A stretch of 64,000 bases of DNA, from positions 224,943 to 288,942 of the forward strand of contig NZ_AOIP01000031.1 in the NCBI RefSeq assembly GCF_000337535.1, in the 5' to 3' direction. The DNA is from Natrialba aegyptia DSM 13077 (GTDB lineage Archaea; Halobacteriota; Halobacteria; Halobacteriales; Natrialbaceae). Made by a program: the position numbers and the translations under genes. Under the pieces are notes generated by a model. The model ran no database searches. It had not been told where the DNA came from and saw only the letters and a list, made by a program, of their open reading frames with translations. This document shows positions 1,499-17,590 of the stretch, one piece after another (the stretch's first letter is position 1; every line of letters begins with the position of its first letter).

Positions 1499-1792
1499 TT
1501 ACGCCTCGTCGGATCGGTCGGGTACGGGCGGCGCAACGCGACACCCACACGGCCCCGCAACCGCGTCCGTCGGCCCGATCATCGTCGTTCGCGTGATCGG
1601 CTCCCCGCATCGCGGGCACGTTCTGAACTCGTGGTCGGTCTCGCGATCGGGATTTTCGTGTGCGTCACCGGGGTGTTCGTGCGTTTCGCCCGGATTCTTG
1701 TGTGCGTTACCGGGGTTCTCGTGTGCGTCGGTCCGGGTTTCGGTCGGTTCGGTATCCGGTTCGCCGACTCCGTCGTCGTCACTCCGGGTCAT
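1499..1792 (-). CDS. small zinc-ribbon protein with hexapeptide repeats
   Basis: This 97-residue acidic protein has two parts. Residues about 24-50 carry four to five imperfect copies of a hexapeptide of the form NPG-x-[AT]-H-[EK], encoded by near-identical 18-bp DNA repeats. The C-terminal half contains CPRCGEPI and, about 20 residues later, GPCGC, a CxxC...CxC arrangement typical of the small zinc-ribbon proteins that are abundant in haloarchaea. Such proteins usually bind one zinc ion, and most have no known function. The ATG is preceded by an AGGA-like ribosome site. It stands alone between two unrelated regions. Function unknown; the zinc site is inferred from cysteine spacing. Confidence 0.6.
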   Translation of the reverse strand: MTRSDDDGVGEPDTEPTETRTDAHENPGNAHKNPGETHEHPGDAHENPDRETDHEFRTCPRCGEPITRTTMIGPTDAVAGPCGCRVAPPVPDRSDEA

Positions 1793-2090: not shown

Positions 2091-2098
2091 TAATACAA
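2091..2098. repeat. left target-site duplication TAATACAA
   Basis: TAATACAA immediately precedes the left terminal inverted repeat and is repeated exactly at 3320-3327 immediately after the right one. An 8-bp duplication is the mark of a transposition event and is the size produced by several IS families. Confidence 0.85.
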
Positions 2099-3319
2099 GA
2101 GGGTGTCATAGAACAGTTTTCATCCCCTCTCTCTGTGACTACCCGACAAACGGTAAGTCCAGGGCAAGCAGTTACCGAAGCGGCTATCGATCTATCCGAA
2201 CTATGCCAAAAGCTACCTGCTGAATATAGAGGTTGTAGGCAGCAGCCGATTAGCGTTTGTTTCCATGCTGATCAAGTGAATGTACCGGTCACGCGAACTG
2301 CTCACTGGTTGATAAGCTCAGCCTGTTCGTCAAGTATATCTTTGTGTTCCTCAGTCGCATCTTCGTGAGCATCCACATCGCCTTCGGCACGGTCAGAGAG
2401 TTCCTGCAACCTGCCTTCCTTTCCGTATAGGACGACAGTGTCGCCAGGATGTATCTCCGTATCTGATCCTGGGGCACCGATGTAGTCGCCATTTCGCCGA
2501 AGGCCGAGCAAGAGCACACCCTCTTCAGCGAGGTTCATTTCGTCGGCGCTATTGTTCGAAAGCCAGTCGTCCTGGTTCACGTCTACTTCAGCGACCTGAT
2601 ACTCGCTTTGGAGTCCGAGCATCCGGGTATAGTCGTTGATCGCCAGGTCTGTCGTCCTCTCGAGAACCCGTTCAATGAGTGGTGTAACGGCTTCATTAAG
2701 CAACTGACTCTTCGCGGTGGCAATAATCAGAAGCAAGCCACCAAGAACGTAGACGAGCGTAAGCGAATTTTCGCCACCAGAGTTGATGAACGACAGGAGA
2801 AGCGACGTGAGTGCACCCACGACACCGATACTCCCGATGCGAATTAACCATAAGATAGTGGATCGTCTGATGGGTTCGGAAACCGCGAATTCGGCCTCTT
2901 CAGTTGTAAAACCGGCCCCAGAGAACGCCGATGCGGCCTGAAATGTGGAGACATCGGGCGACAGTCCGGTCATCCGAAGCGCGACTGAGCCGATCCGGAT
3001 GACTAGTAGAGAGAGTGCGAAGATGATGAAGACCGAGAAAATTTGGGTTGTTGCAACCATGTGCGTCACCACCATGGTGCTGTAAAAGAGTCCTCGTACG
3101 TTTCACAGTGCACTGATAGTACCCTATACTGAGCGACTACCACCTTCTCAAACCGAACTGAATCTTGTGCTGCGTTTGCGCTGTGTATTCAGCACGGATC
3201 TGCCAACATCACCAATAGATGATAGAAGTACTAGCGTTCGATTCACAAATGTAGTGAACGGATAGTTCGCTCCAGATTGGGTGAAAAGAACGCCATGCGG
3301 ATCGTTCTATGACACCCTC
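2099..3319. mobile_element. transposase-less insertion cassette (TIR element with TrkA-C passenger)
   Basis: The element is 1,221 bp. Its ends are perfect 16-bp inverted repeats, GAGGGTGTCATAGAAC at 2099-2114 and its complement at 3304-3319, flanked by the 8-bp direct repeat TAATACAA. The interior is clearly more AT-rich than the surrounding DNA and holds one gene, a TrkA-C membrane protein, and no transposase frame on either strand. This fits a mobile insertion cassette or MITE-like element moved in trans by a related IS. Identical flanking duplications suggest a fairly recent insertion. About 65 bp of its left end is shared with a shorter relic at 17449-17590. The parent IS family cannot be named from this window. 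Confidence 0.85.
2302..3075 (-). CDS. membrane protein with TrkA-C (RCK_C) domain
   Basis: This 257-residue protein has about three membrane segments in residues 8-130. A loop reading FQAASAFSGAGFTTEEAE resembles the TrkH/KtrB pore-loop type (SAF-x-x-AGF). The C-terminal region, residues about 155-225, is a TrkA-C ligand-binding domain ending in GDTVVLYG. Proteins of this build are thought to sense or regulate potassium or other ion flow; the ion here is unknown. It is the only gene inside the inverted-repeat element and is transcribed toward its left end. Codon use is less GC-rich than in its neighbours, which fits acquisition. The first ATG is used as start; an in-frame ATG five codons later is equally possible. 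Confidence 0.75.
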   Translation of the reverse strand: MVVTHMVATTQIFSVFIIFALSLLVIRIGSVALRMTGLSPDVSTFQAASAFSGAGFTTEEAEFAVSEPIRRSTILWLIRIGSIGVVGALTSLLLSFINSGGENSLTLVYVLGGLLLIIATAKSQLLNEAVTPLIERVLERTTDLAINDYTRMLGLQSEYQVAEVDVNQDDWLSNNSADEMNLAEEGVLLLGLRRNGDYIGAPGSDTEIHPGDTVVLYGKEGRLQELSDRAEGDVDAHEDATEEHKDILDEQAELINQ

Positions 3320-3327
3320 TAATACAA
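3320..3327. repeat. right target-site duplication TAATACAA
   Basis: This is an exact copy of the octamer at 2091-2098, directly abutting the right inverted repeat of the insertion. It also lies about 45 bp upstream of the promoter of the frameshifted lipoprotein gene. Confidence 0.85.
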
Positions 3328-3370
3328 TGCTATTCGCTCGGCAGAGATTTTTATATACTGATAAATAAAA

Positions 3371-3381
3371 TACTTATATTT
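3371..3381 (+). promoter_or_regulatory. TATA box of the frameshifted lipoprotein gene
   Basis: An AT-rich block containing CTTATATT is centred about 26 bp before the ATG at 3401, the normal distance for a leaderless haloarchaeal start. It supports 3401 as the original start codon of the broken gene. Confidence 0.55.
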
Positions 3382-3400
3382 TCTCCTGTATGTGATTGTT

Positions 3401-3831
3401 ATGGTGACTCGCCGGTCCTTGCTCGCCTCGACGACAGCCCCGCCAGCGCAACCGTCGCCGGCTGTTCGGCCGTCCTCGGTGAAGAAACCGATCACCACTA
3501 CGTGGATATGCTCAACGGAAGCGAGGAATCCCACGTCTTTGCGGTCACCATAACCAACGACGCCGGTGAGACGCTCTTCCATCGGACATACGATCTTCCA
3601 GCCTGGAACGGCGACGAAAACAGGGTCATCGACGGTTCCCCTGCGTCGGTTGCCGTCGCCGTTGACGACGGTGAACCCACACAATTCCCGTGGGCTCCCC
3701 GAGAGGGTCGTCATGCTAATTCAGAAGAGTGCTCCCAGGGAACGTCTGCAAGTCTGAGCATCTACTATGATCCACAGTCGGGCGACGGAGTAACCCCGAT
3801 CTACGGGTGCGAAATCGCTCAAGATCAGTAG
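3401..3831 (+). pseudogene. small secreted lipoprotein gene, frameshifted in the signal peptide
   Basis: From the ATG at 3401 the frame reads MVTRRSLLAST, a Tat-type signal start. The signal end and lipobox (SATVAGCSAVLG, Cys at 3463) and the whole mature domain lie in the next frame, running to the stop at 3831. A one-base deletion near 3430-3440 explains this, and no start codon exists upstream in the second frame. The mature part (FAVTITNDAGETLFHRTYDL, PASVAVAVDDGEP, two further Cys) resembles the intact lipoprotein at 58767-59207, so both belong to one family of about 145 residues with a beta-rich domain. A sequencing error or programmed shift cannot be excluded. Function unknown. Confidence 0.65.
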
Positions 3832-17448: not shown

Positions 17449-17590
17449 CAGAGTGTCATAGAACTGTTCCCATACTCTCTCTGTGACTACCCGACAAACG
17501 GTAAGTACAGAGGATCCACTTTCTAGAAAACCCATCACATATGTGGCTGTAATCAGCCTCCGCACCGTGGAGGATTTCTATGACATCCTC
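17449..17590. mobile_element. 142-bp MITE related to the insertion at 2099
   Basis: The left end CAGAGTGTCATAGAAC (17449-17464) and the complement of the right end GAGGATGTCATAGAAA (17575-17590) share the core TGTCATAGAA with the 16-bp ends of the 2099-3319 element. The next 50 bp (containing CTCTCTGTGACTACCCGACA and then AACGGTAAGT) are nearly identical to the left interior of that element. No coding capacity is left and no target duplication is visible, so it is an older internally deleted copy. Confidence 0.75.

Follow-up and report, generated by a model that had tools for sequence, protein, structure and literature searches.

The 64,000-nucleotide stretch of Natrialba aegyptia DSM 13077 analyzed in this study (hereinafter, the window) contains a 1,221-bp element, at positions 2099 to 3319, which very likely represents a young non-autonomous transposon of the mobile insertion cassette type and one member of a large, Natrialbaceae-centered family of transposase-less gene cassettes, in which two conserved end modules enclose varied host genes. 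For this family we could document the ends, the duplications, one empty site, and a wide variety of intact cargo genes; we also observed that related cargo recurs at separate sites and that a single site can hold different cargo. The complete interpretation also includes a helper, a cargo exchange, and a gene capture step, which are inferred.

The ends of the element are perfect 16-bp inverted repeats, the left one (GAGGGTGTCATAGAAC) at 2099 to 2114 on the plus strand and the right one, its exact reverse complement, at 3304 to 3319 on the minus strand, and they are flanked by an exact 8-bp target-site duplication (TAATACAA; left copy at 2091 to 2098, right copy at 3320 to 3327). A sequence-only reading of the same DNA had described the 16-bp inverted ends, the 8-bp repeat, the 1,221 bp in between, and a single membrane/TrkA-C gene without any transposase, all of which we confirmed exactly, and its proposal of a mobile insertion cassette is supported by our analysis. 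It had missed the modules that extend inward from the 16-bp ends, namely, a left module of about 63 bp (2099 to 2161, plus strand), ending in CTGTGACTACCCGACAAACGGTAAGTMCAG, and a right module of about 79 bp (3241 to 3319, plus strand), beginning with GTTCGCAAGTGTAGTGAACGGATAGTTCGCTCCAGATTGGGTGAAAAGAAC, as well as a second family member in the window, a 142-bp remnant at 17449 to 17590 with an intact left module, no cargo gene, and no duplication. A chance origin of the matches to the 16-bp end is ruled out by their number, since 5 were found in the window with up to 3 mismatches (0.28 expected) and 51 in the whole genome with up to 2 mismatches (1 for the reversed control). No transposase remnant was detected in the element by tblastn with the resident transposase described below. 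In all, 54 elements with both ends were extracted, a minority of them being less certain, with weak right ends; no other element of the set combines two perfect 16-bp ends with an exact 8-bp duplication, and the window element therefore looks like the youngest insertion.

Farther inside, the element presents a left inner repeat (CTGCTGAATATAGAG; 2217 to 2231, plus strand), common to a subset of the cassettes and to the Halalkalicoccus locus of a cargo homologue, and a right inner repeat at 3180 to 3196, which reads CGTGCTGAATACACAGC on the minus strand. A pair of inverted inner sequences, CGTGCTGAATACAGAGC, located about 115 to 150 bp inside the ends, recurs in a subset of cassettes (the window element, L014, L019, L091, L105, and L154), and it also brackets the cargo homologue L030 (1413 to 2392), which is devoid of outer ends. 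A separate inner transposon with CGTGCTGAATACAGAG ends was considered and rejected: with up to 3 mismatches, the genome has only 7 matches to the motif, against 1 for the control, and no version of such an element with a transposase came to light. As for the surroundings, a sequence of about 180 bp at approximately 1852 to 2046, upstream of a small zinc-finger-like open reading frame (1499 to 1792, minus strand), is dispersed in 7 of 7 congeneric genomes, with several to about 20 diverged copies in each and roughly 75 to 86% identity, and an Rfam search with it returned no credible match. On the right side, the interval from 3328 to 3672 is absent from the matching locus of Natrialba taiwanensis, where homology begins at about 3673, and is variable within the genus.

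The existence of a family emerged from a census of the left module, carried out with a 21-bp motif and up to 2 mismatches (0 matches for the reversed control). The motif occurs in 42 of 125 Natrialbaceae genomes, belonging to 13 of 29 genera, and in only 6 genomes outside the Natrialbaceae in a draw of 392 genomes of the order. For the right module, matches were obtained in 20 plasmid records of haloarchaea, with no annotated feature under the best matches, and no cassette ends were found in viral contigs and phage records. When the modules were aligned across 35 elements, their inner edges proved sharp and the interiors unrelated. The cargo ranges from none, in the empty cassettes of about 291 bp (L063, L109, and L135), through single genes, up to the four-gene ABC-transporter operon of a 3,823-bp element, which encodes a substrate-binding protein, a permease, an ATPase, and a TOBE protein. 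At least 14 Pfam families are represented in 20 cargo proteins, including GNAT, cupin-like, TrmB-like plus Amphi-Trp, response regulator, DUF7344, PNPOx, MFS, TehB-like methyltransferase, HTH_63, M48 peptidase, PF03458 membrane protein, FkbM methyltransferase, and EamA, besides many small membrane or unknown proteins; among the larger cargoes are a 1,158-aa PAS protein in one element and a combination of MOSC, aminotransferase, and DUF4188 in another. The cargo lies in either orientation relative to the ends, and pairs of related cargo genes are under purifying selection, with dN/dS values of 0.09 to 0.29.

These data bear on a simpler explanation, according to which the window element is a one-off mobile insertion cassette, i.e., an insertion sequence (IS) internally deleted, with the TrkA_C gene substituted and no family behind it. 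Taken alone, the window element fits this explanation, with its IS ends, its duplication, and its one gene. However, the same long modules recur in numerous genera, around many unrelated genes, and they differ from the subterminal sequence of the IS, so that the one-off explanation is contradicted by the census and appears very improbable.

On Haloterrigena and Natrinema plasmids, many cassettes adjoin a repeat of about 53 bp (CTCGAGTTCAGTGATACGCTGGAACACGCAAGATGGACAGTCACTTGTTGTT), as observed on pHTUR03 (NC_013746.1, 4674 to 5383 and 26676 to 27462) and at L180, L183, L245, and L246, and the insertion point within the repeat is TGGAACA. Cassettes also occur in tandem arrangements in which the spacing corresponds to about one unit of this repeat.

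Evidence for transposition comes from the boundaries of the elements. When a direct repeat was required to have 6 or more exact bp, or 7 matches in 8 bp, one was found at the boundary of 19 of the 54 elements; shuffling of the right flanks gave 0.6 on average and never more than 5. A clear duplication is absent from the other 35, which suggests that many elements are old or rearranged. Furthermore, an empty site is available for one family member, the 1,366-bp element L094, which in genome G077 is flanked by the 8-bp duplication CGGGTTCC: in dozens of other Natrialbaceae, its joined flanks, which we take (on the basis of the translations) to be the end of a CPBP-like gene and an hjc-like gene, give an unbroken alignment, whereas in G077 the cassette lies between them. 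The empty site of the window insertion itself was not found in flank searches of all 7 congeneric genomes. In one of them (G002), the left neighbor occurs without the cassette, with 88% identity over about 1.1 kb and homology that stops 20 bp before the insertion; the right neighbor is located about 3 kb further on, and the two flanks are not continuous.

It could be argued that the modules are not transposon ends and correspond to conserved promoter, terminator, or RNA sequences around ordinary genes, in agreement with their being non-coding and conserved. This alternative is contradicted, and all but excluded, by the terminal inverted repeats, by duplications far above chance, by the empty site, and by the presence of cargo in either orientation; moreover, the modules gave no Rfam match near the gathering threshold of any family.

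A candidate for the mobilization of the cassettes resides in the same genome, as an IS of about 1,068 to 1,070 bp whose ends are nearly the same as those of the window element; it is flanked by an 8-bp duplication and encodes an intact DDE transposase of about 330 aa. The transposase meets the Pfam DDE_Tnp_1 model; its nearest NCBIfam models are IS1182 and IS5, with scores below the curated cutoffs (68.6 bits versus 270 and 24.7 versus 140, respectively). One resident copy of 1,070 bp (L009) has perfect ends, identical to those of the window element in 16 of 16 positions, and has lost the matching duplication; another (L010), with the transposase at 1167 to 2159 on the minus strand, shows the 8-bp duplication TTCTACAC, a single mismatch in each end, and a gap in the assembly, and several contigs of the draft assembly end at IS copies. 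In relatives, the copies L201 and L203 carry the identical 16-bp sequence at both ends and duplications of 8 to 9 bp (TTAGAGAC and TCTTATTG, respectively), and duplications of this length are also found around L202 and L206, whose ends are slightly altered. The homology between IS and cassettes is restricted to the outer 24 to 28 bp or so, the modules of about 63 and 79 bp being absent from the IS, and we found no intact element that is autonomous and has both long modules. Cassettes and transposase co-occur in 21 of the 125 Natrialbaceae genomes versus 15.5 expected (Fisher P = 0.024), a weak association. In Haloterrigena turkmenica, which has the most cassettes after the source genome, the helper transposase had no match at an E value of 1e-60 or lower; in the absence of a close relative, another transposase may act there. 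The IS remains the best candidate mover of the cassette because of its same ends, its same duplication length, and its presence in the genome, and we infer that the resident 1,068-bp IS5/IS1182-like element would supply its transposase in trans, thereby moving the cassettes. Transposition in trans is itself an inference, as are the mode of gene capture and the identity of the acting transposase. Larger pieces may be captured when two neighboring cassettes are moved together, a step that is likewise inferred. A peculiar locus (L163; contig C1 of G038, about 1217188 to 1219472) combines the left module of the cassettes with a BBE-like oxidoreductase gene and with a broken, degenerate transposase of the helper IS family, the last adjoining an IS-like right end; it is possible to hypothesize that it is an intermediate between IS and cassette. 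The sequence-only reading had suggested looking for a complete IS with matching ends, for copies of the ends in different flanks, and for an empty site retaining one TAATACAA. The IS was found, with its 8-bp duplication, in the same genome and in relatives, and copies in different flanks are many; the empty site was obtained for L094 instead of the window insertion.

The passenger gene of the window element (2302 to 3075, minus strand) is an intact open reading frame of 257 aa, encoding a protein with predicted membrane helices and a C-terminal TrkA_C (RCK_C) domain; an alignment of its relatives indicates a conserved start probably at 3060, corresponding to a protein of 252 aa. The match to Pfam TrkA_C (PF02080; E = 4.9e-11, 42.8 bits versus a gathering threshold of 27) is present in all 15 aligned members, and the PDB matches of the domain, a relative of RCK_C, are 4xtt, KtrA, and MthK. 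In the N-terminal half, a GAGxTTxEAE stretch is invariant in the relatives, and we take it to be reminiscent of TrkH/KtrB pore loops, unconfirmed by any search; this half had no match among Pfam and PDB sequences. The AlphaFold model (pLDDT 63.7) is too weak for a pore fold to be recognized, and its Foldseek matches are led by RCK-domain proteins. A role of the protein in K+ or osmotic sensing is therefore no more than a possibility, guessed from the domain. The sequence-only reading had considered the gene an uncommon cargo that could spread a salt-response trait, which is a conjecture; the cargo turned out to be incidental, with dozens of unrelated genes carried by the same ends.

Relatives of the gene are mostly outside recognizable cassettes, with a patchy distribution and often on plasmids of several haloarchaeal families, and no constant neighbors were found in the five contexts read. 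The closest one (L030, in the Halalkalicoccus genus cluster, G127) is a non-cassette locus sharing 89% DNA identity over 2301 to 3208 of the window (minus strand), i.e., over the gene and about 133 bp upstream, with a dN/dS of 0.26 and a dS of 0.19. Neither outer ends at this locus nor, around the homologues, other inverted ends with a duplication were found. In the congener G003, a homologue (L168; contig C1, 2208500 to 2212500) is split by the insertion of an unrelated transposase of about 1 kb and adjoins a decayed left module, with an orientation the reverse of that seen in the window, which might point to a second, separate capture of the gene.

A further property of the family concerns the relationship between site and cargo. 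Pairs of cassettes sharing both flanks carry unrelated cargo in 9 of 10 cases, and those sharing one flank do so in 26 of 27, while 21 of the 23 pairs with related interiors share no flank; some elements enter into several of the flank-sharing pairs, which are therefore not independent. Related cargo at unrelated sites is exemplified by L059 and L144, from different genera, by L094 and L156, and by L066, L133, and L140. A view of a single site is offered by L073 and L141, in two Natrialba species, where the flanks are 96% identical, the end modules are 98 and 90% identical and share rare variants, and homology ends at the inner module edges, the interiors being unrelated. A similar pattern was observed for L105, L106, and L112, and the TCGTGG site presents three different interiors in three genera (L069, L076, and L125). 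Overall, the average similarity of the two modules is 0.90 and 0.84 for same-site pairs versus 0.81 and 0.78 for the others (permutation P < 1e-4, uncorrected for the non-independence of the pairs). Since same-site cassettes mostly carry unrelated cargo and related cargo is found at different sites, cargo has probably been exchanged in place, with an outcome resembling that of integrons and by way of transposon ends; this is a likely inference. Recombination between cassettes is shown by the hybrid elements L123, L109, and L145/L241, whose left and right flanks come from two different sites. On Natrinema zhouii plasmids, L149 and L150 share an FkbM segment with 99% identity over 1.1 kb, and L149 has an extra GNAT gene before the right end, so that it looks like the FkbM cassette of L150 after stepwise cargo gain.

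Three mechanisms could account for these patterns. In the first, a dedicated exchange system, a recombinase or the transposase itself would swap cargo precisely at the inner module edges. In its favor are the L073/L141 pair, with homology stopping at those edges, shared rare variants, and unrelated cargo, the similar pattern at the TCGTGG and L105/L106/L112 sites, and the sharp inner edges across 35 elements. However, the cassettes have no linked recombinase, similar patterns could also arise from homologous recombination in the conserved ends or from repeated insertion, and longer ends are shared in a subset (the window element, L014, and L019), so that the edges vary; we regard such a system as unlikely. 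In the second, the transposase would prefer exact sites, with an independent insertion each time and no exchange in place. The occurrence of several elements at the same position of the 53-bp repeat suggests such a target preference, and there the similarity of same-site ends is a weak effect and not outstanding. However, the ends of same-site pairs, taken together, are more similar than those elsewhere, and L073 and L141 share private variants, as expected from inherited ends with replaced cargo, and no common target is apparent at most other insertions; independent insertion thus also appears unlikely. In the third, which we prefer, recombination between the conserved ends would change the cargo of resident cassettes, and homologous recombination in the modules likely accounts for most same-site patterns, without excluding site-specific exchange or repeated insertion. 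A bolder reading, which can be put forward only as a possibility, would see in the family a haloarchaeal, transposon-based counterpart of integrons, i.e., a pool with standard end modules, in which the cargo of resident sites is swapped precisely at the inner module edges and a trans-acting transposase carries cassettes to new sites, so that single genes as well as operons travel among megaplasmids and from genus to genus.

Among the closest known systems is MIC231 of Bacillus cereus, related to IS231 of the IS4 family (cited in PMC2266710), where IS ends surround a passenger gene without a transposase. For MIC231, mobilization in trans is the accepted model. The window element has the structure expected of a mobile insertion cassette: its ends are those of a resident IS (16 of 16 positions with the 1,068-bp copies in relatives and with the 1,070-bp copy here), the duplication has the length expected from the helper (8 bp exact; 8 to 9 bp in several IS copies), and it holds a passenger gene without a transposase. 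Its mobilization in trans is inferred. Different from MIC231, whose ends are those of IS231, the haloarchaeal family has its own long modules, a likely IS5/IS1182-like helper, a very large diversity of cargo, and archaeal hosts, and it also shows apparent exchange in place and, as on pHTUR03, tandem arrangement in places. The definition of an autonomous IS of the IS5/IS1182 group, with its own transposase, is not met by the window element.

Miniature inverted-repeat elements (MITEs) of Haloquadratum, described in the haloarchaeal study that compares best with the present data, comprise five families, four of them non-coding and shorter than 500 bp, and only the ISH2 type has a non-transposase open reading frame (PMC3119063). 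These MITEs, including the ISH2-type HqIRS32, resemble the cassettes in lacking a transposase and in having only the terminal bases in common with the helper (PMC3119063), whereas most members of the cassette family carry different host genes, up to 3.8 kb. A short, non-coding nature is not a feature of the 1,221-bp window element, and only the three cassettes of about 291 bp would qualify. In TIMEs and TIME-COMPs (PMC4133298, PMC13367494), non-autonomous ends similarly mobilize adjacent genes and form mosaics, but these elements are of Tn3-family origin and bracket the cargo with two miniature copies, while a cassette has one pair of ends; Tn3 repeats with the corresponding duplication are not met, in view of the GAGGGTGTCATAGAAC ends, the 8-bp duplication, and the DDE_Tnp_1 helper. 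The Tn3-family features used in this comparison are general background. Pack-TYPE transposons of plants (PMC8903248) are also non-autonomous, with captured coding DNA between shared ends; different from them, the cassettes carry complete genes under selection, and even operons, show apparent exchange at fixed sites, and are found in archaea. Finally, integron cassettes, including those of archaeal integrons (PMC9668308), are similar in usually having one gene per unit, in the diversity of cargo, in some tandem arrangement, and in the replacement of cargo at a fixed site. Unlike them, the haloarchaeal cassettes are bounded by inverted ends and target duplications, where integron cassettes have attC sites; no linked integron integrase was seen, without a systematic search for either feature. 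No published account of the family was found in the open-access literature searched, which did not include ISfinder. It follows that its novelty is provisional: for the time being, we consider the family apparently undescribed and structurally akin to mobile insertion cassettes, from which it differs in modules, cargo, exchange, and host.

Gene flow among haloarchaea is extensive, but its small-scale vehicles are poorly known. The cassette family would be a concrete vehicle of this kind, with an end motif occurring in a third of the sampled Natrialbaceae genomes, ends that lack any annotation where public plasmid records match them best, and a cargo of sensors, transporters, enzymes, and regulators. 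With the end modules, the candidate transposase, the occupied and empty sites, and the pairs with different cargo at the same site, the acquisition and swapping of genes become testable.
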